Below, in pieces: positions 17,719 through 34,332 of a stretch of 34,332 nucleotides of DNA. The stretch comes from Acidobacteriota bacterium (lineage in GTDB: Bacteria > Acidobacteriota > JAAYUB01), in contig JAFGRT010000111.1 of NCBI GenBank assembly GCA_016935015.1, positions 1-34,332 on the forward strand. The letters run 5' to 3'. The notes beneath the pieces are model-generated. The model saw only the letters and a program-made list of their open reading frames with translations, ran no database searches and was not told where the DNA came from. Numbering within the stretch: position 1 is the stretch's first letter; every line of letters begins with the position of its first letter. Made by a program: the position numbers and the translations under genes.

Positions 17719-19680
17719 TTACGAGGCGTCCGCTGCGGGGGAGATCAGGGTCCGGTATTTGGCGAACGTCAGTAGGCAGAGCGCCTTGGTGACGGTGGGA
17801 GAAGTCCAGTATGTGTATATACAGGTTCGCTCGCCCAGCTGTTGTTCGGCGGCCGCCTGACAACGGATCCATTGCCGGCGAAACTCCTCTTCCGGCAAAA
17901 TGCCCCGCACGCCGTGAATCCTCAGATTGTCATAGTTCTCGGCCACATTCATAGGAAAGAGAAAGGGGACGGTATCGATCCCCTTGATGGATCCGGAAAA
18001 ACAGGCGTTTTCCCAGGAGGGACTGGCCGAGTTGAGCCGGGTATAGAGCCAGGTTAGGCTGCGCCGTACCGCTTTCCTGATCTCCGGCGGAGTGTCTGTT
18101 CGCCAGTCGCGACGATCCGGTTGCTGGTCATTGCTCACCGTCCAAATATCCAGCAGGGCATTCAGGGCCAATGCCGTACTGTACAATCGGTCGTCCAGGA
18201 TGGCCAGACTGCCCGGCCAGAAGGTCTCGTGTTCCATCCGCGCCAGGAGCTGCCGGGTACCGGGTCCGCGCAAGACCGGTCCCAGCTCTTGACGCCATTC
18301 CTCCATAAAGGACCAGGGCAGCGGTGAGCGGGCCGCGCCGTCGTTCAGCAGCCGCAGATTGGCGGCCAGGAAGCGGTAATAATTCAGGACGTTGGGATAA
18401 TAGAGCAGAACGATGTCCCTCTCTTCTGCCAGGAGATCGCGCTCCACCACCCAGCACAACAGTTGCCCCGTGTGCCGGTAGCAATGGATGAAGGCCACGG
18501 GCAGATGGGGCGGATTTTCCCGCCGGGCCGGTACGAGGAATTCCGCGTTCAGACCCAGCAGAATATTGGCGCAGACAGACGGCTCCACGTTGTTCATGTT
18601 CAGGGGAATCTTGGTGCCGCGGGTGCCGAACTGCACCCCTTCGTAGGGTGATTGCAGCCAGGTGGTCATAAAGGCCGGGGCGGCGGAATCCGTTGTCTGC
18701 ATGTATTCCCGGATCCAGCAATAGGTTCGCGGATCGATCAGGTTGACGGTCCGGTCCGTCGACAACGGCTGGTAGGCATACCGGGCAATCAGGGCCAGCA
18801 GCTGTTCCAGATCCTTGTTGGCGGCGCGCCATGCTGCCCGGTCCGGCGAGAAGTCCGGAGAACAGCTCTGGATGGCGGCGCCGACGGAGAGGGCCAGGCC
18901 GGTGTCATCCAGATCGGCCGGCATGTTGAAGCGGTTCAGGAATCCCCGGGCATCCCCTTGCAGATAGCCGATCTGCAGATCGGGTGATCCCAGAATGCGG
19001 ACTTGGGTGATGTCCATGCCGATGCGCTGCAGGAGGGGGGCCAATACGGGGAAGACATGGGCGGCATAGGAAACGATTGTGATGATATTATCCGGATTCA
19101 GTCGCCAGCCGTGGGCCGCTATTTTTTGCTGCCAGAAACCGTAAGCCGGCACCCCGTCCGACAGATTCCGATCACGAAAACGCAGTATTTGGTGGACGGA
19201 AGGGGTCAGTTGATCAGGCGTCAGGCGGATGGCGCCCAATTGATGCGCTTCCAGCAAACTTTGGGTGACGATGCTGGTGGCAAACATGTTGGTATCCGTG
19301 AGCTGGAAGAAGGAACGAAGCCAACGACAGGCCGGCGTTGCCATGGTTTCGCCGAAAAAAAAATGCCCCACCTGGATGGCGGAGGGATACAACCCATGGT
19401 AGCGTTTGTGCAACAGGTAGCCGGCCAGGCGGCCCATCATCGGATGCCGAGCGGTCCATTGATCGGCCCGGATGGATTCGTTCAGCCACTGGATAATGAA
19501 TTGAACCTGCTGCTCCGCCAGCGGAGTGTGATGATCCATGTAGCCATCACTCTCCGGATGGAACGACGGGATGAAGAGAACCGCCAGGATGAGGATCCGT
19601 TGTAGACCGCGACGAAGGGGTCTCGCGGAATAGGATGGGTGGCCGGAATCGCCCGTCGCTGTGTCCGGTGATGCTTTCAC
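17719..19680 (-). CDS. Unrecognised helical-repeat protein with a DxDDT motif (terpene-cyclase-like?)
   Basis: 653 residues from a GTG at 19680 (GGAG ten bases upstream), or 606 residues from an ATG at 19539, which also has GGAGAG upstream. With the longer start, residues 23-38 (RRGLQRILILAVLFIP) look like a signal peptide or anchor. I do not recognise a family by name. Seen directly: D256-L-D258-D259-T260-G, matching the DxDDTA acid motif of class II terpene cyclases, plus repeated helix-turn phrases typical of alpha/alpha toroids (DTNMFATSIVTQSLLEA, VEPSVCANILLGL, DRLYSTALALNALLDIW, SPTVTKALCLLTFAKY). QW motifs are not obvious. The fold is inferred and the reaction unknown. The gene is downstream of an exporter operon on the same strand, 149 bases away. 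Confidence 0.6.
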   Translation of the reverse strand: MKASPDTATGDSGHPSYSARPLRRGLQRILILAVLFIPSFHPESDGYMDHHTPLAEQQVQFIIQWLNESIRADQWTARHPMMGRLAGYLLHKRYHGLYPSAIQVGHFFFGETMATPACRWLRSFFQLTDTNMFATSIVTQSLLEAHQLGAIRLTPDQLTPSVHQILRFRDRNLSDGVPAYGFWQQKIAAHGWRLNPDNIITIVSYAAHVFPVLAPLLQRIGMDITQVRILGSPDLQIGYLQGDARGFLNRFNMPADLDDTGLALSVGAAIQSCSPDFSPDRAAWRAANKDLEQLLALIARYAYQPLSTDRTVNLIDPRTYCWIREYMQTTDSAAPAFMTTWLQSPYEGVQFGTRGTKIPLNMNNVEPSVCANILLGLNAEFLVPARRENPPHLPVAFIHCYRHTGQLLCWVVERDLLAEERDIVLLYYPNVLNYYRFLAANLRLLNDGAARSPLPWSFMEEWRQELGPVLRGPGTRQLLARMEHETFWPGSLAILDDRLYSTALALNALLDIWTVSNDQQPDRRDWRTDTPPEIRKAVRRSLTWLYTRLNSASPSWENACFSGSIKGIDTVPFLFPMNVAENYDNLRIHGVRGILPEEEFRRQWIRCQAAAEQQLGERTCIYTYWTSPTVTKALCLLTFAKYRTLISPAADAS

Positions 19681-19730: not shown

Positions 19731-19757
19731 TGTGTGAATACACATGCAATTCAATTG
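19731..19757. promoter_or_regulatory. Pair of inverted repeats upstream of the DxDDT gene
   Basis: TGTGT-GAAT-ACACA (19731-19744) and CAATT-C-AATTG (19747-19757) lie 50-80 bases upstream of the GTG at 19680. The first resembles sites of CRP/FNR-type regulators in symmetry but not exactly in spacing. The surrounding 149 bases are AT-richer than the coding flanks. No convincing -35/-10 pair was found. Confidence 0.3.
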
Positions 19758-19829
19758 TAATGGCACATGACCCCAAATTCAAGGGCGAAGAGGGTGGGAC
19801 TTTCGTCCGGACCGCGCTCTGAGCGGATA

Positions 19830-21086
19830 TCATTCGTAACGCAGGGCTTCGATGGGGTCCAGGTGGGCGGCCTGTCGCGCCGGCCAGGCGCCGAACAGCA
19901 GGCTGATGCCGCCCAGCACCGTCAGCGAGATGATGAAAGCGGGGATGGTGATGATCAGGTAGATGTCCCCCTGGCCGGAAGTGTCCTGGAAGATGTTGCT
20001 CAGGAAAGGGATGCCTCCGATCAGCCAGGCGACCAGGCTGGCCAGCAGGTAGCCGGTGGCGCCGCCAGCCAGGGTCAGGATGAAGGTCTCGCACAGGAAC
20101 TGCACGAGTACGTGGCGCCGCTTGGCGCCCAGGGCGCGCAGGGTGCCGATCTCCCGGCGGCGGCTGCGCACGGAGAGCAGCATGATGTTCATCACCCCCA
20201 CCCCGCCGATGCACAGGGTGATGACCCCCACCAGCAGCACCGTGATGTTGATGGCGCCCGTAAAGCCGTCGATGATGGACTGGAGCTCGGAAAAGCGGTT
20301 GAGGTCAAAGGCTTTGTCATCGGCAGGATCGAAATGGTGCCGCTCGGCCATGATCTGGAAGAACTGGCGTTCGGCCGCGGTTTCGAACTGGCCGGCCACC
20401 GGCTGCCAGACCATGACGCTGAGGTAGCGGGTGTCGGTCATGACGGCCATGGTTTCAATGGGGATCATGGCGGAGCGGTCATCGGGCTGGAAATAATTGG
20501 AGATAGAGATTTTTTTCCGCAGCACACCCACCACCCGGAAGCGGATACCGCGGATTTTCACCTCCCGGCCGACGGCGGGCATCTGACTGAAGAGCTGCTC
20601 CTTCAGGTCATGGCCCAGGACCACCACCCGGGCCATCTGCCGCTCCTCTTCCGGGGTGAAGAAGCGGCCGTCGGCCAGGTACATGCCCCGGATTTTCTCA
20701 TAGCAGGCGCTCACGGCCCGGATGCCGGCGGTGGTGTAGCGCTGTCCGTACTGGATTTTGTAGCGGCGGAAGACCTCGCCGCTGGCCTGCCGGATGAGCG
20801 GGGCGTTGGCCCGCACCAGATCCACGTCCCGTTTTTCCATGCGCAGGGCGCGGCCGGCCTTGAGTCCCCCGGCCTGCTTGCTGGTCTGGCCGTTCCAGAC
20901 CACCACCACCTGGTCGCCGAGATAGCTCATGCCGATGTGCATGGCCCTGCTGAAGCCGTCACCGTATGCCATGAGGATCATGAAGGCCATGATCCCCCAG
21001 GTGACTCCCAGAATGGTCATGACGGTGCGCACGGGATTCCGGGCGATGGCTTGCCAGGAGAGTCGGATGATGGATCGAACGTTCAT
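19830..21086 (-). CDS. ABC transporter permease, MacB/FtsX type (second)
   Basis: 418 residues with MacB-like topology. One N-terminal helix follows RSIIRLSWQAIARNPVRTVMTILGVTWGIMAF, then a large periplasmic domain (about residues 45-280), then three C-terminal helices (ITVLLVGVITLCIGGVGVMNIMLLSV, the FILTLAGGATGYLLASLVAWL segment and IPAFIISLTVLGGISLLFGAWPA), ending PARQAAHLDPIEALRYE. The conserved GGVGVMNIMLLSVRSRRREIGTLRALGAKR loop contacts the ATPase in this family. No nucleotide-binding domain is fused. It follows the other permease by 13 bases and is the last gene of the exporter operon. Confidence 0.88.
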   Translation of the reverse strand: MNVRSIIRLSWQAIARNPVRTVMTILGVTWGIMAFMILMAYGDGFSRAMHIGMSYLGDQVVVVWNGQTSKQAGGLKAGRALRMEKRDVDLVRANAPLIRQASGEVFRRYKIQYGQRYTTAGIRAVSACYEKIRGMYLADGRFFTPEEERQMARVVVLGHDLKEQLFSQMPAVGREVKIRGIRFRVVGVLRKKISISNYFQPDDRSAMIPIETMAVMTDTRYLSVMVWQPVAGQFETAAERQFFQIMAERHHFDPADDKAFDLNRFSELQSIIDGFTGAINITVLLVGVITLCIGGVGVMNIMLLSVRSRRREIGTLRALGAKRRHVLVQFLCETFILTLAGGATGYLLASLVAWLIGGIPFLSNIFQDTSGQGDIYLIITIPAFIISLTVLGGISLLFGAWPARQAAHLDPIEALRYE

Positions 21087-21099
21087 GGGCAGCTCCCGC

Positions 21100-22425
21100 T
21101 CATTCCTCGAACCGCAACGCCTCCACCGGGTCGAGGAAGGCGGCGGTGTAGGATGGGTAGAAGGCCGCGGCCAGGGCCACGAACACCAGGAAACCGAAGG
21201 CCGACAATCCCACCCATTTGGACACGATCATGCCGGCGAACACATCGGGCAGGGGCAGACTGTTGATGACACCGCAGAGTCCCATGGCCCCCAGGTAGCC
21301 CAGCAGGCCGCTGCCCAGCGAGATGAGCAGCGCTTCCAGAAAAAACATGGCCAGGATGTTCAGGCGGGTGGCACCCAGGGCCTTGCGCAGACCGATCTCG
21401 CGGGTGCGCTCCCGCACGGAGACCAGCATGATGTTCATGACGCCGATCCCGCCCAGCAGCAGCGTCACTACGGCCACAAAGCCCAGAAACAGTTTCATGG
21501 AGGAAAAGATTTGGGTGATGAATTTGGCGTCTGTGGCCGTATTCCAAATGGGCAGGGCGTCTTCGTCCAGCGGATCGAAATGATGATGCCGGGCCAGGAT
21601 CTCCCGCACCTGCAGCTCGGCCACATCCCCTTCGGCCATCCCTTTTGGTTGCAGAATGAGGTTGGAGATGTGCCGGTCGCCGTAAGGGCCGCTGCGGAAA
21701 GGGAAATCCCGGCGCATGGCCGGGTAGGGGACGAAGATCTTGCCGTCGTCCCGACCGCTGTAGGAGCCGTTCTGGGTTTTCGGGGGCAGGATCCCCACCA
21801 GGCGATAGGTATATCCCTGCAGGCGCACCGGATCGCCGGGTGCGGCCCGGCCGGCGAAGAGCTGCCGGTTGACCTCGTGGCCGATGATGCACACCCGGGC
21901 GGCGTCGGTTATGTCTTTTTCGATGAACTGGCGTCCCTGGGCCGGAAAGATACTGCGCATCGCCATGTAATCCACCAGGACGCCGCTGACGTCGAAATTC
22001 CCCTGGTTGATGTCGGTGGCGCTGATGAGGTCGTAACGGCTCAATTCGGGGCTCAACCGCTGCAGGTGGAAGGCTTCGCGCTGCAGAATCTCATAGTCAT
22101 CCACGGTCAGGTAGATCTGCTTGTTGGGGCGGATGCCCGGGCCGGCGATGCTGGTGGAACCGCCCCAGACGATGATGATGTGGCGGCCCATGGCGTACAT
22201 CTTCTCCATGTGGGCCTGGCGCATGCCTTCCCCGACAGCCACCAGGATGATGAGGGAGGCCACACCCCAGGCGATGCCCAGCATGGTCAGGAAGGAACGC
22301 AGCCGGTTCTGGTTCAGATCGGCCCAGGTCTCGCGGATCAGGTCCAGCGGGGCGATGCTCAGCCGGTGACGGCGACGGGAACGGCCCTGGCTGGACTCAC
22401 GCTCTGGTCGGTATGGGTAAATCAT
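21100..22425 (-). CDS. ABC transporter permease, MacB/FtsX type (first)
   Basis: 441 residues. A basic, cytoplasmic N-terminal extension of about 25 residues (ERESSQGRSRRRHRLS) precedes the MacB-like core: IRETWADLNQNRLRSFLTMLGIAWGVASLIILVAVGEG, a periplasmic domain, GGIGVMNIMLVSVRERTREIGLRKALGATR and three C-terminal helices ending ALRFEE. It is homologous to the next permease, so the two may form a heterodimeric channel. It lies 15 bases after the fusion protein gene. No ATPase domain is present. Confidence 0.88.
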   Translation of the reverse strand: MIYPYRPERESSQGRSRRRHRLSIAPLDLIRETWADLNQNRLRSFLTMLGIAWGVASLIILVAVGEGMRQAHMEKMYAMGRHIIIVWGGSTSIAGPGIRPNKQIYLTVDDYEILQREAFHLQRLSPELSRYDLISATDINQGNFDVSGVLVDYMAMRSIFPAQGRQFIEKDITDAARVCIIGHEVNRQLFAGRAAPGDPVRLQGYTYRLVGILPPKTQNGSYSGRDDGKIFVPYPAMRRDFPFRSGPYGDRHISNLILQPKGMAEGDVAELQVREILARHHHFDPLDEDALPIWNTATDAKFITQIFSSMKLFLGFVAVVTLLLGGIGVMNIMLVSVRERTREIGLRKALGATRLNILAMFFLEALLISLGSGLLGYLGAMGLCGVINSLPLPDVFAGMIVSKWVGLSAFGFLVFVALAAAFYPSYTAAFLDPVEALRFEE

Positions 22426-22440
22426 GGTGTATCACCGGGC

Positions 22441-23691
22441 TCACTGCAGCACGACACGATCCTCCCCCGAAAGTCCACGGATGACCTCGACCCGCGAACC
22501 GTTGCTGATGCCCACGTCCACGGGGACGCGCCGCACCAGCTGTTCTTCGCCGGTTTGATGGATCAGGTCGACGAAGGCCGCCTTGTTTTCATCGTAGACC
22601 AGCGCCGTTTCCGGAATCTGCAGGACATCCGCCTTGCGGGCCAGGATGATCTCGGCGTTGGCGCTCATGTTCACCCGCAGGTCCGTATGCTCGGAGAGCA
22701 GCCGGACCCGGACCTCGAAGCGGGTGACATTGTCCTCTTCGAGGCCCATGGGGGAAATGCGGAAGACCTCGCCCTCGAACCGCCGGTCGCGGTAGGTTTC
22801 CACCGTCAGTCGGACCGGCTGGCCGGTGTGGATTTCGCCCACATCGCTCTCGTCCACGTCCCCCTTGAAATAGAGCTCGCGCGTGTCGCCCACCACCATG
22901 ATGAGGGTGGCGTTGGAACCCAGCTGCAGGATGGAGCTGACGGCGTCGCCCTCCTCCAGGTGCCGCTTGAGGACCAGGCCGGCAATGGGGCTGCGGATGG
23001 TGGCGTAGCGCAGGTTTTCCTCGGCGCGCTGCAGGGCGGCCTCGCCGGCGTGCAGGTCGGCGCGGGCCTGATGGACGGCGGTTTCGGAAGTGTAGTATTC
23101 AGCTTCACGCAGCAGGACATTCTTCTTCAGGACGTTATCGCGAACCTCTTCGGCGCGGAAGCGCTGCTCCACCATGTCCAGGTCGGACTTGGCAACCAGT
23201 TGGGCATCGTACACTTCCTTGATCCGCTCGTATTCGCGCCGGGCAAATTCCAGGTCCTGGTTCCGGGCCTCTTCCTTTGCTTTCTCCAGGGCCAGGGCGG
23301 CAGATTTCATCTCGGCGGCGGCCTTCTCCAGCAGCGCCTGCCGGGCCATGACATGGGCCCGGGCTTCCCGCACCGATGCTTCCAGTTCCTGGCGGTCCAG
23401 TTCGAGCAGGACCTGGCCTCTTTCCACCATGTCCCCCTCATCCACGTAGAACTGCTGAATGATGCCGCTGGCCTTGGACTTGACGTCGATCTTGGTGACG
23501 GGCTCGATCTTGCCGGTGGCCACCACCGAGCAGACCATCTCGCCCGATTGCACCGCGACGATGCGTTCATCGGGGATGAGGCTGTCGGTACTGAACAGAT
23601 TGCTGAAGACAAAATAGATGCCGCCGATAATGATCAGGACGACAACGATGGTCACGATTCGCAGCATCGTCACCCCGGTTTTGTTGCCCAT
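22441..23691 (-). CDS. Membrane fusion protein, MacA/HlyD (RND-type adaptor) family
   Basis: 416 residues: an N-terminal membrane anchor (LRIVTIVVVLIIIGGIYFVFSNL), a split biotinyl-lipoyl domain (GKIEPVTKIDVKSKASGIIQQFYVDEGDMVERGQVLLELDRQELEA and, on the return, LRYATIRSPIAGLVLKRHLEEGDAV), a long coiled-coil hairpin between them (about residues 95-210), and a beta-barrel region. It bridges inner-membrane transporter and outer-membrane channel in tripartite exporters. GGGAGG lies six bases before the ATG. It is first in an operon with two permeases; no outer-membrane TolC-like gene or ATPase is adjacent. Confidence 0.9.
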   Translation of the reverse strand: MGNKTGVTMLRIVTIVVVLIIIGGIYFVFSNLFSTDSLIPDERIVAVQSGEMVCSVVATGKIEPVTKIDVKSKASGIIQQFYVDEGDMVERGQVLLELDRQELEASVREARAHVMARQALLEKAAAEMKSAALALEKAKEEARNQDLEFARREYERIKEVYDAQLVAKSDLDMVEQRFRAEEVRDNVLKKNVLLREAEYYTSETAVHQARADLHAGEAALQRAEENLRYATIRSPIAGLVLKRHLEEGDAVSSILQLGSNATLIMVVGDTRELYFKGDVDESDVGEIHTGQPVRLTVETYRDRRFEGEVFRISPMGLEEDNVTRFEVRVRLLSEHTDLRVNMSANAEIILARKADVLQIPETALVYDENKAAFVDLIHQTGEEQLVRRVPVDVGISNGSRVEVIRGLSGEDRVVLQ

Positions 23692-30083: not shown

Positions 30084-30458
30084 ATGGCTGGTGAATACCA
30101 TGAGCCGTATGAACTGCTGCCCGATGAAGCCATCGAGTTTCATCGGATGATCAAGAGCGTGATCGAGGAGCTGGAGGCCGTGGACTGGTACAACCAGCGG
30201 GCCGCCGTGACCAAGGATCCGGCCCTCAAGGCCATCGTCGAGCACAATCGCGACGAGGAGATCGAACACGCCTGTATGGGATTGGAATGGTTGCGCCGCA
30301 ATTTCGCGAACTGGGATGAGAACCTTCGCACGTACCTGTTCACCGAGGCGCCCATCACGGAGATCGAGGAGGCAGAAACGGGTGGTGCTGCCGCCGGCGA
30401 GGGTGCGGAGCCGGAGTCGGGCACGGATTCATCATTGGGCATTAAAAGCTTAAAATAA
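30084..30458 (+). CDS. Encapsulated ferritin (EncFtn)
   Basis: 124 residues. This ferroxidase oxidises Fe2+ inside an encapsulin shell for mineral storage. The two-helix half-ferritin is complete: IEELEAVDWYNQR and HNRDEEIEHACMGLEWLRRNF. Compared from memory with Rhodospirillum rubrum EncFtn at an offset of three, the ferroxidase ligands are Glu29, Glu59 and His62 (Rru Glu32, Glu62, His65), with Trp35 and Tyr36 also kept. After a Gly/Ala/Glu linker the protein ends SLGIKSLK, a classic encapsulin cargo-loading peptide. AAGGAGGTGA gives a strong ribosome site. The shell gene begins 14 bases later. The 128-base upstream gap is AT-rich before the ATG, but no clear promoter was found. Confidence 0.95.
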   Translation: MAGEYHEPYELLPDEAIEFHRMIKSVIEELEAVDWYNQRAAVTKDPALKAIVEHNRDEEIEHACMGLEWLRRNFANWDENLRTYLFTEAPITEIEEAETGGAAAGEGAEPESGTDSSLGIKSLK

Positions 30459-30472
30459 GGAGGAATACGACA

Positions 30473-31276
30473 ATGGATATACTGAAACGATCACTGGCTC
30501 CCATTCCGGTCGAGGCCTGGAGTCTCATCGATGATGAGGCGCGCCAGGTGCTGAAGGGCCGCCTGACCGGCCGGCGCTTCGTGGATTTCAACGGACCGCT
30601 GGGTCTGGAATTCGCCTCCCTGAACACGGGGCGGTTGCTGGACGTCGACGCCGAGCGGGTGGATGACAATATCTCCTACAAGATCCGCAAATCCATGCCG
30701 GTTGTAGAACTGCGGTACCCCTTCCGGCTGAAGATCGAAGAACTGGAAGCCCTGGTGCGCGGCGCCCAGGACGCGGAGATCGATCCCCTGCTGAACGCCG
30801 CCAAGGCCATGGCCGACGCCGAAGATAACGCCATCCTCTTCGGTTTGAAGCCGGTCTCCATCCCGGGGGTCCTCGCTGCCTCCCCCCACAAGGCCCTGCC
30901 GGTCACCAAGGAAGGGGAGCGGGTCATCAGCGCCCTGTCCAGAGGCGTGAAAAAGTTGCGCGACGCGTTTGTGGACGGACCTTACGCCCTGTTGGCGGGG
31001 ACAGAGATGCTGGCCGACATCCAGGCCCAGCACGAAGGCGGTTATCCTATCCTCAGTAAAATCAAGGATATGCTTGGCGGAGACATCATCAAGTCGCCCT
31101 TCCTGGGCAAGGAAGGCGCGCTGGTGTCCACCCGCGGCGGTGACTACGAACTGTTTGTCGGCCAGGACCTGTCCATCGGTTTCAACCGCCAGGACGGGGC
31201 CGAAGTGGAATTGTTCATGTTCGAAACCTTCACCTTCCGGGTGAATACGCCGGAGGCTTGCATCCCGCTGAAATAA
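30473..31276 (+). CDS. Family 1 encapsulin shell protein
   Basis: 267 residues with the HK97 phage-capsid fold, self-assembling into a nanocompartment. Its length matches the 24 nm T=1 shells such as that of Thermotoga maritima, which it resembles throughout: MDILKRSLAPIPVEAWSLIDDEAR, GRRFVDFNGPLGLEFASL, IRKSMPVVELRYPF, and near the end STRGGDYELFVGQDLSIGF and ETFTFRVNTPEACIPLK. The cargo is the ferritin encoded immediately upstream, with which it is surely cotranscribed. TAAGGAGG precedes the ATG. A GC hairpin follows the stop. Assembly state (T=1 or larger) cannot be read from sequence. Confidence 0.95.
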   Translation: MDILKRSLAPIPVEAWSLIDDEARQVLKGRLTGRRFVDFNGPLGLEFASLNTGRLLDVDAERVDDNISYKIRKSMPVVELRYPFRLKIEELEALVRGAQDAEIDPLLNAAKAMADAEDNAILFGLKPVSIPGVLAASPHKALPVTKEGERVISALSRGVKKLRDAFVDGPYALLAGTEMLADIQAQHEGGYPILSKIKDMLGGDIIKSPFLGKEGALVSTRGGDYELFVGQDLSIGFNRQDGAEVELFMFETFTFRVNTPEACIPLK

Positions 31277-31494: not shown

Positions 31495-34332
31495 TCAGCG
31501 GGCGGACCCTATCCGGCGCAGTTCATCCCGGATGGCGGCATGGTCGGCCAGGCGCTCCCGGCGCGACCGGCGGATCAGGGCCAGGCAAAAATCCGACACC
31601 GCCGCCGGGATAGCCGGGTCCACTTCCCGTGGCGGCACCGGGTCCTCATGCAGCAGCGCGTACATGAGCCGGGCCGGATCGTTGTCCTCGCCGTGGAAAG
31701 GGGTGGTGCCGGTCAGCATCTCATAGAGAATGATGCCCAGGGCGTAGAAATCCATGGCCGGATGGGGGGCGAGTCCGCCCAGCTGTTCCGGCGGCAGGTA
31801 GGGTAGGGTGCCGGCCAGGCGGCCGGTGCGGGTCAGGGCCGGCTGGCCGATGAGGGTGGCGATGCCGAAGTCGAGGATGCGAATGGATGGCGGTCCGTTA
31901 TCTGGTGCATGGAAGGCGAAAGACGACGGCGGACTGTGGTTGGCCGGTGGGAGAATCATGATGTTTTCCGGCTTCAGGTCGCGATGGATGATGCCGGCTT
32001 TGTGCATGTCATGGACGGTATCCGCCAGAGGGGCGAACAGGGCCAGGGCCTGATCGGGCGGCAGCGGACCGTGTTCGGTCAATCGCTGCCGCAAATCCTG
32101 CCCGGCGCAGAATTCCATCACCCAGTACAGGCGACCCTGGTGCCGGCCCTGATCCAGCAGGCGGACTACGTTGGGATGGTCCAGCCGGCGCAGGACCTTC
32201 CCTTCCTGTTCGAACCGGCGGTGCGTTTCAGCCGTGACCAGTTCCGGATGCAGGAGCTTGATGGCCACCAGGCGGCGGGTTTTGCGGTCGCGGGCCTTGT
32301 GGACGGTGCCCATGCCGCCCTGGCCCAGGGTGGCGAGGAGTTCGTAGTGGCCGATGGTGTGGGCGCGGCGCCAGTCGTGGAGAATGGTCCGCCAGCGGCG
32401 CACGCCGCGGTAGCCCACGTAGAGGAGGGCGGCGAGACCGACGAAGCCCAGCAGGGTGAACCAGCCCTGGCGCCAGAAAGGGGCCTGAACCACCAAAGCC
32501 AGGATGGCGGTACGGGATTGCCAGGGGCCTTCGCCCCGGGCGGCGCTGACCTCGAAACGATACCGGCCCGGTGCGAGTCCCACCAGTCGCAGGTTCCGGT
32601 CGCTACCGGCATCCAGCCACTGTTCGGACAATCCCTGCAGGCGGTAGCGGAAGCGAATCCGTTCAGGCGTGGCCAGGGCAATAGCCGTGTAACGGATCGT
32701 CAGGACGGCATCGGCCGGGCATTCCAGTTCTTCTTGGATACTCACCGCCTGCCCGCTGAGCCGCACCTCTTCAATGAGGACCGGCGGCGCATCTTTGCCG
32801 GTGTTGTCTGGCCGGGGATCCACCCGGATCACCCCGGCGGCCGAGGGAAACCACAGATTGCCGTCGGCCGTCTTGATCGCACCGGGGCAATTGCCCCCAC
32901 TGCCGCGCAGAGTTTTCAAGCCATCGGCGAGGCCGACGCGAAGGCACTCCACTGTCGGCATAACGCCGTCGGCGCATCGCCGCAGCTGCTCGGCGGCCAC
33001 CGAAAACAATCCCTGATCGCTGCTCATCCAGAAACGGCCGAAATCATCCTCGAGAATCTGGTAGAGGTAGTTGCTGGCCAGGCCCCGCCGGGTGTCCACC
33101 ACGGCGAAGCCTTCCTCCCGCCAGCGCGCCAGCCCGCCGCCGTGAGTGGCGATCCACAGACTGCCGTCCCGGTCCGGATGGATATCGTACACGCTACCGT
33201 GAGGCAACCCGTCAGTGGTTCGATAGAAGCGAAAATCTTCACCCACCCGATAGCCGACGCCGTTGTCGGTGCCCACCCAGAGACGGCCTTGTCGGTCCTG
33301 GGAGATGGTACGAATGGTTTTCTCCGCCGGCCGGTCTGATGGGAGCCAGGTATGGAGCCGGTCGTCCACCAGACAACTGAGGCCGTCCCGACTGCCGAAC
33401 CACGTCCGGCCCCGGTCGTCCATGTAAATGGCCAGGACCGACGGATCGTCATGGAGATAGAACGGTCGCCAGCGCATGAATTCGTCTCCCTGGCGGCGGA
33501 ACACGCCATGGGCGTCGGTGCCGGCGAGGAGGTTGCCGTCCGGGCCGAAGCCCAGGGAGCGGACAAAAGGTGCATCGATGCCGTTGTCGAAGCCGGCGAT
33601 GTGGTATCCCTGCCTGTCCAGTCGCTGCAGGCCGGCCGGCCCGCCGCACCAGACGCCGCCCGCCGGATCCGCCAGCAGGGTGTAGACCGGCGCATATTCG
33701 CCGTCGGCCAGCGGCAATGTGGTGATGGAACTCTTGCGAAAGCGGTCGAGGCCGCCGCTGGTGCCGACCCACAGGTTACCCTCCCGGTCGGCCAGGAGCC
33801 GGTGCACCTGGTGACCGCTCAAGCCGTCCGCACCGGTGAAGGTATGGACGGTGTCGCCGGCCAGACGGGCCAGACCGCGGTCGGTGCCGATCCACAGACC
33901 CTTTTCATCATCCATCAGCAGGCAGCGGACTACCGGTGACGGCAGACCCTGCACCGGACCATATGTCCGCCGGCCCCGGTCCGTCTGGCGCACCAGCCCG
34001 CGCGTCGTTCCCACCCACAGGTTCCGATCCGCGTCCTCGAGTAGGGCCGCAATAGCGGTTTCCTTGAACTCCGGTGCCGAGGAATTTTGGAATCTCTCTT
34101 TTGCCATGGCACCAAGACCCAGCCGGGTACCGCAGAGCAGCACGCCGTTCCGCCGCCGGAAGACGCTGAGCACGGTATGATGGATAAGGCCCTGTTCTTC
34201 GGAATAGATCACCCAGGACGGCGGCGTGCAGCGGATCAGTCCGTCGTAGGTGGTGCCGGCCCAGATCTGATTCCCCTCATCGACGTACAGTGTTTCGATT
34301 TCCAGCGGCGGTGAGTGCGGCGCCGCGGTCGG
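31495..34332 (-). CDS. Beta-propeller sensor fused to a Ser/Thr protein kinase (5' end outside window)
   Basis: 945 residues are visible; the frame stays open to the edge, so the start is missing. Residues ~1-530 are two-component-regulator propeller repeats, each with a GxLWIGTxxGLxR-like phrase (RNLWVGTTRGLVR, KGLWIGTDRGLAR, GNLWVGTSGGLDR, GRLWVGTDNGVGY). A Y_Y_Y Ig-like domain follows (RFRYRLQGLSEQWLDAG), then one transmembrane helix (FTLLGFVGLAALLYVGYRG). The cytoplasmic part is a Hanks-type kinase beginning HYELLATLGQGGMGTVHKA with Lys692 (VAIK), Asp785 (HRDLKPEN) and Asp821 (DFG), counted from the window edge, so it should be active. It resembles hybrid two-component sensors with the His kinase replaced by a Ser/Thr kinase. 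Ligand and substrates are unknown. Confidence 0.9.
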   Translation of the reverse strand, partial: PTAAPHSPPLEIETLYVDEGNQIWAGTTYDGLIRCTPPSWVIYSEEQGLIHHTVLSVFRRRNGVLLCGTRLGLGAMAKERFQNSSAPEFKETAIAALLEDADRNLWVGTTRGLVRQTDRGRRTYGPVQGLPSPVVRCLLMDDEKGLWIGTDRGLARLAGDTVHTFTGADGLSGHQVHRLLADREGNLWVGTSGGLDRFRKSSITTLPLADGEYAPVYTLLADPAGGVWCGGPAGLQRLDRQGYHIAGFDNGIDAPFVRSLGFGPDGNLLAGTDAHGVFRRQGDEFMRWRPFYLHDDPSVLAIYMDDRGRTWFGSRDGLSCLVDDRLHTWLPSDRPAEKTIRTISQDRQGRLWVGTDNGVGYRVGEDFRFYRTTDGLPHGSVYDIHPDRDGSLWIATHGGGLARWREEGFAVVDTRRGLASNYLYQILEDDFGRFWMSSDQGLFSVAAEQLRRCADGVMPTVECLRVGLADGLKTLRGSGGNCPGAIKTADGNLWFPSAAGVIRVDPRPDNTGKDAPPVLIEEVRLSGQAVSIQEELECPADAVLTIRYTAIALATPERIRFRYRLQGLSEQWLDAGSDRNLRLVGLAPGRYRFEVSAARGEGPWQSRTAILALVVQAPFWRQGWFTLLGFVGLAALLYVGYRGVRRWRTILHDWRRAHTIGHYELLATLGQGGMGTVHKARDRKTRRLVAIKLLHPELVTAETHRRFEQEGKVLRRLDHPNVVRLLDQGRHQGRLYWVMEFCAGQDLRQRLTEHGPLPPDQALALFAPLADTVHDMHKAGIIHRDLKPENIMILPPANHSPPSSFAFHAPDNGPPSIRILDFGIATLIGQPALTRTGRLAGTLPYLPPEQLGGLAPHPAMDFYALGIILYEMLTGTTPFHGEDNDPARLMYALLHEDPVPPREVDPAIPAAVSDFCLALIRRSRRERLADHAAIRDELRRIGSAR

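Follow-up and report, generated by a model that had tools for sequence, protein, structure and literature searches.

The question raised by this locus is what kind of protein carries a motif reminiscent of class II terpene cyclases in a 653-residue chain that matches no described family and begins with a signal-peptide-like segment. The gene lies within the window, the whole stretch of 34,332 nucleotides from an Acidobacteriota genome that was analyzed. An initial annotation had suggested that its product, P0001, represents a separate branch of class II terpene-cyclase-like proteins or, given the hydrophobic N-terminus and an exporter encoded nearby, a non-enzymatic or exported toroid. The gene, the site preceding it and the relevant segments of the protein are as follows.

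17719..19680, reverse strand: toroid or class II terpene-cyclase-like gene (P0001, 653 aa), assigned by open reading frame and family membership
19754..19782, reverse strand: weak promoter-like site within the 149 bases that precede the P0001 gene, 9/12 consensus matches
19561..19596, reverse strand: hydrophobic segment ILILAVLFIPSF, residues 29-40, following RPLRRGLQR; probable signal peptide or N-terminal anchor
18898..18915, reverse strand: DLDDTG, residues 256-261; predicted acid motif, D258 being the putative general acid and D256 the putative base, like AstC D273 and D271
18565..18594, reverse strand: NNVEPSVCAN, residues 363-372; family signature NxVDxVVNAN, with N372 equivalent to the acid-positioning N324 of AstC
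18394..18402, reverse strand: YYP, residues 427-429; Y428 equivalent to AstC Y361 and AsDMS Y427
17752..17808, reverse strand: WTSPTVTKALCLLTFAKYR, residues 625-643; C-terminal family helix, consensus W.S.ayTTA...EALakY

The open reading frame starts with GTG, about 9 bases downstream of a GGAG ribosome-binding site, and displays normal coding bias over its whole length (GC3 about 0.73). A second in-frame start, ATG at residue 48 with a ribosome-binding-like GGAGAG upstream, would yield a product without the signal peptide. Promoter-like sites before the gene occur in the number expected by chance. The DLDDTG motif is present at residues 256-261, as annotated, and the nucleotide coordinates originally assigned to it, 18901-18915, cover D-L-D-D-T, the full motif extending over 18898-18915. 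From amino acid composition, we estimate that DxDDT would appear by chance in roughly 1% or fewer of the proteins of this size. The hydrophobic N-terminal segment and the helical repeat phrases that had been pointed out (TALALNALL at residues 502-510 and TKALCLLTFAKY at 631-642) are likewise present.

Searches with P0001 alone bear out the remark that no family could be recognized: there was no match to Pfam or NCBIfam models at E <= 10, and comparison with PDB sequences returned only noise. BLAST against 297 Acidobacteriota genomes retrieved the window itself and no relatives, and none was detected in 40 related genomes, the gene being absent from the sister genomes, by tblastn against plasmids and phages, or by an exact 8-mer peptide scan of the contigs of about 85,000 genomes. 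A looser motif pattern produced a single AT-rich match in the same phylum, which was judged to be due to chance.

Relatives were accessible through another motif, NNVEPSVCAN, which resembles NxVDxVVNAN; a degenerate DNA scan for this signature was applied to viral contigs and subsequently to genome contigs. Among the six matches in viral contigs, one is a true relative (L004), which also carries DIDDT; a further scan of viral contigs with the alignment A1 revealed no relative. In genome contigs, 107 stretches match the degenerate motif, most of which encode family proteins containing it, and many of the motif-matching proteins carry DxDDT 45-121 residues upstream of NxVDxVVNAN. The family thus assembled includes about 95 relatives from bacteria and archaea. 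The nearest relatives of P0001 are proteins of 566-595 aa from Bdellovibrionota, Campylobacterota, Muiribacteriota, Riflebacteria, Elusimicrobia and proteobacterial metagenome-assembled genomes, with which it shares, in the same order, D129 (TDTN), FW183, N252-P254, D256-x-D258-D259, TW341, NNV365, V369-x-A-N372, LYYP429, TAL504, W556, W625-x-S627 and KY642. Neither DxD nor YYP was part of the search pattern; N372 was, so its conservation in the motif-selected set is not independent, and this residue is also kept in four relatives found by profile.

P0001 belongs to this unnamed family, which is characterized by DxDD, NxVDxVVNAN, YYP and W.S.ayTTA (for example, L013, L025, L088, L095 and L112). 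A blastp comparison with one member (L054) gave an E-value of 7.6e-8 in a small database, and a model of 99 members, from whose final alignment P0001 is absent, recovered it with 45.3 bits (hmmsearch, E 2.6e-11 at Z = 100000), compared to 1.3 bits for the best of 200 shuffled sequences. In hhalign, P0001 as a single sequence aligned with the long clade (A2) at 97.0% (E 8e-11, residues 121-513) and with the short clade at 73% (E 3e-5), with DxDD, NxVD, YY and W.S in register. P0001 retains 19 of the 21 columns that are conserved in at least 85% of the members outside the search motif, with an overall identity of about 20%. Compared to the rest of the family, P0001 contains three insertions (approximately residues 284-330, 383-420 and 566-622, the last, near the C-terminus, of about 60 residues) and, uniquely in an alignment whose sequences were chosen by this signature, has E366 in place of D and C370 in place of N. 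In the phylogenetic tree, its branch measures 2.66 changes per site and is weakly placed; because the branch is so long, we do not assign it to a specific clade. These sequence comparisons make P0001 a solitary, deeply branching member of a genuine, unnamed family, for which the combination of DxDD, NxVDxVVNAN and YYP offers a simple handle for finding further members.

The affinity of the family, and through it of P0001, with the class II terpene cyclase superfamily is supported by profile searches. In the PDB, an 84-member profile (A3) recovered class II terpene cyclases of every type: squalene-hopene cyclase (SHC; 1GSZ, E 1.1e-18), lanosterol synthase (4.9e-11), drimenol synthase (3.4e-9), AstC (2.5e-7), the merosterolic acid synthase MstE (about 1e-6) and copalyl diphosphate synthases (below 1e-5), with protein prenyltransferases and macroglobulin domains far behind and no convincing glycosidase. 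This outcome agrees with the initial proposal of a class II terpene-cyclase-like protein on a branch of its own. The DxDD block of the family sits on the DVDD of SHC (YPDVDDTA), P0001 DLDDT aligns with the family DxDDT, and, at the family-profile level, repeats of the P0001 type match the QW-like repeats of SHC; hhalign of the family against SHC gave 97.6% (E 2.9e-12). The profile of the short clade (A4) aligned with almost the whole cyclase domain of drimenol synthase (E 2.9e-26), such that the DlDdt of the short relatives coincides with DLDTT of AsDMS, and also matched AstC (E 4.5e-18). At E <= 0.01, a threshold distinct from the curated cut-offs, PF13243 is matched by 22 of the 84 members, TIGR01507 by 23 and TIGR01787 by 29. 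P0001 itself matches neither PF13243 nor TIGR01507, and the 12 long rows of A1 match no Pfam squalene-cyclase model at E <= 1. The long clade is covered by no Pfam or NCBIfam model, and members outside it reach generic squalene-cyclase models only, in a family that spans many bacterial and archaeal phyla.

SHC consists of two toroid domains; it resembles the family in its QW-like repeats and DxDDTA, whereas NxVDxVVNAN is not seen in its alignment. MstE (6SBB) is a stand-alone, single-domain class II cyclase, but its best match covers the repeat half only, and the protein is the shorter of the two, its PDB chain having 367 aa. In anatomy, P0001 comes closest to the beta-domain (TC-beta) cyclases, among them AstC, MstE and the drimenol synthases fused to HAD. 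AsDMS (9MHS, 9M7D) and AstC (22TY, 22TZ), in which TC-beta is fused to HAD, align with the short relatives over nearly the full length of the profile and share with P0001 the DxD, the acid-positioning asparagine (AstC N324), the tyrosine (Y361/Y427) and the order of the motifs; PSVCAN of P0001 also resembles PVVCCN of AstC. Unlike these enzymes, P0001 contains no HAD domain detectable with Pfam, its N-terminus comprising the signal-like segment and helices, has DxDDT where AsDMS and AstC have DxDTT, and is about twice the length of their domain, with additional N-terminal helices, insertions and a probable signal peptide. The family adds a large set with a checkable active site to the single-domain class II cyclases, few of which are characterized.

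The catalytic residues of these enzymes have been probed by mutagenesis. The acid of AstC is D273, which N324 and Y361 hold in place, and the base is D271; N324A, Y361F, D271A, D271N and T274A abolish the product, and D273N abolishes cyclization (PMC13244436). In AsDMS, analysis of Y427F, D331A/N and D333N identified D331, D333 and Y427 as essential (PMC12365925). In our alignment, AstC D271, D273, N324 and Y361 correspond to D256, D258, N372 and Y428 of P0001, N324 being the last asparagine of NRVDPVVCCN and Y361 the tyrosine of FYP; AsDMS Y427 is the second tyrosine of YYP. The check on conservation that had been proposed for the DxDDT motif gave a clear result: across the 84-sequence alignment, aspartate occupies the D256 position in 81 of 82 sequences, the D258 position in all 82 and the D259 position in 72 of the 82, and Y428 is tyrosine in 83 of 84. 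The lack of conservation that would have refuted the initial proposal was thus not seen, and it is this conservation, more than the rarity of the motif by composition, that carries weight. The superfamily assignment, the alignment of the motifs and the conservation of the residues rest directly on these data.

The diphosphate ligands present a different picture. K314 of AstC anchors the diphosphate; the equivalent position is occupied by V or M in 12 of the 13 long-clade rows (M362 in P0001) and by R in 8 of the 10 UbiA-linked rows. P0001 has no counterpart of AstC K314, S450 or K451, and a GPKK-like segment preceding the C-terminal helix is missing from P0001 and the long clade. Given the lack of these lysine/arginine and C-terminal K/R ligands, together with the probable signal peptide, a polyprenoid devoid of diphosphate is the likely substrate.

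Export of P0001 is probable, judging from its N-terminal segment and from the long clade, where most full-length relatives begin with a signal-peptide-like hydrophobic segment, several of them with a lipobox. To our knowledge, known terpene cyclases act on the cytoplasmic side, so that export would be odd. A search of the open full-text literature found no paper that brings together class II terpene cyclases, a signal peptide and the periplasm.

We consider it reasonably likely that P0001 is a deeply divergent toroid of the class II superfamily that cyclizes a diphosphate-free polyprenoid at the outer face of the inner membrane; catalysis and the class of substrate, like export, are what we infer. 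Under this model, a polyprenoid chain would sit in the cavity of the toroid, D258, held by N372 and Y428, would protonate a double bond, and the ensuing carbocation cascade would close at least one ring and be terminated by D256 or water. Neutral lipids would be candidate substrates, as would the tails of lipid carriers or quinones. Against this model, we counted the lack of a direct match between P0001 and a cyclase model, the glycosidases among which Foldseek found its best toroids, the uncertain placement, the E366 and C370 substitutions, the absence of isoprenoid neighbors, the odd export and the alternative ATG at residue 48. More tentatively still, P0001 might belong to a clade of envelope-acting class II cyclases that have lost the diphosphate ligands and cyclize finished polyprenoids, such as polyprenols, lipid carriers, quinones or carotenoids, with signal-peptide or lipoprotein forms in Bdellovibrionota, Campylobacterota, Muiribacteriota, Riflebacteria, other groups and this Acidobacteriota genome. 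If this exported clade is active, polyprenoid cyclization would be placed in the bacterial envelope.

A terpene-cyclase fold could also have been retained without catalysis, P0001 being an exported toroid with a hydrophobic chain or another protein as its ligand and with an acidic motif of structural importance. The signal-peptide-like N-terminus, the changes of D366 to E and N370 to C within the signature, the three insertions relative to the family, and the absence of the gene from sister genomes and of recognizable pathway genes nearby are all compatible with such a protein. We nevertheless find this unlikely: D256, D258, N372 and Y428 are all retained at about 20% identity, as are 19 of the 21 conserved columns, and DxD and YYP are nearly invariant across the family, including the short members encoded beside UbiA prenyltransferases. 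As for the initial suggestion of a non-enzymatic exported toroid, the relatives support export itself, and the retention of the complete acid network makes this alternative the less likely one. We assign a rather low probability to a cytoplasmic class II cyclase that starts at M48 or is attached to the membrane by its N-terminus and uses a prenyl diphosphate or squalene. The ATG at residue 48 with GGAGAG upstream would permit such a product, short relatives retain phosphate ligands and adjoin UbiA genes, and class II cyclases such as SHC are themselves attached to the membrane; however, the GTG start has a good ribosome-binding site, long-clade relatives possess signal peptides and lipoboxes, the diphosphate ligands are absent from P0001 and the long clade, and the genome contains no match to the squalene-hopene cyclase C-domain.

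Structural modeling bears on a further alternative, that P0001 is some other alpha/alpha toroid, a glycosidase or lyase acting on polysaccharides, with a coincidental DxDDT. AlphaFold2 with the 84 sequences produced a helical model (pLDDT 71.9, pTM 0.80; pLDDT 34.8 without the relatives), for which Foldseek found no significant match in the PDB (E > 0.4) or among viral structures. The weak matches include many alpha/alpha toroids, such as GH88, GH48, glucoamylase and NAG isomerase, and terpene cyclases are absent from the matches listed; accordingly, we predict the alpha/alpha toroid fold of P0001 from the profiles rather than from Foldseek. These non-significant hits are what speaks for a glycosidase. 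The family profile matches class II cyclases at 1e-18 and no convincing glycosidase, DxD, N and Y fall on the active site that mutagenesis has established for a cyclase, and no GH or PL family recurs among the 84 members, for which we recorded a single pectate lyase match (E 0.004) and single glycosidase-type NCBIfam matches (E 3.5e-5 and 0.007). We therefore rejected the identification of P0001 as a glycosidase toroid, which appears highly improbable.

Upstream of P0001, at 19830-23691 on the reverse strand, are genes for two MacB/FtsX permeases and an HlyD-type adaptor; the open reading frames scanned include no adjoining ABC ATPase. This is the exporter to which the initial annotation had drawn attention. 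The permease next to P0001 is about 68% identical to its sister-genus counterpart, and three sister-genus genomes keep the permease pair, adjoining a RimO-like gene, without the toroid gene. Functional coupling of P0001 with the MacB-type exporter was accordingly ruled out, as the latter is no dedicated partner. No isoprenoid genes were recognized beside P0001. Elsewhere in the window, genes for an EncFtn-like encapsulated ferritin and, after it, an encapsulin shell protein (Linocin_M18) form a ferritin-encapsulin pair (30084-31276, forward strand), and a 905-aa fusion combines two-component-regulator propeller repeats, a Y_Y_Y domain and a protein kinase domain (31495-34212, reverse strand).

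At seven loci of short relatives (L004, L033, L037, L038, L040, L083 and L112), a neighbor falls in a UbiA-type prenyltransferase cluster, an assignment based on Pfam tests of two members. These UbiA-linked relatives are about 350 aa long and contain DxDD and the signature, and some also lie near a glycosyltransferase. The loci, from Acidobacteriota and Bacteroidota, are a candidate prenyl-lipid cluster, and given the UbiA neighbors, prenyl-lipid chemistry fits these short members; this context is not carried over to P0001, since its own neighbors are unrelated.

Additional associations were observed around family members. A family of about 350-aa proteins, two of which were tested against Pfam and gave no match, recurs beside members in bacteria and Methanothrix (L014, L055, L064, L100, L106 and L107). 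A genome of the same phylum encodes a 605-aa protein (L147:283-2097, forward strand) with an apparent class I prenyl-synthase-like half (FDDLEDIKDD) and a toroid half, in which DxDTL replaces the DxDD of the family. Finally, a YCF48/BNR-like protein recurs beside the cyclase-like gene at L019, L027, L029, L048, L049 and 10 further loci in Bacteroidota; wherever its orientation was checked, it is encoded on the opposite strand, and in L027 it has a signal-peptide-like N-terminus.
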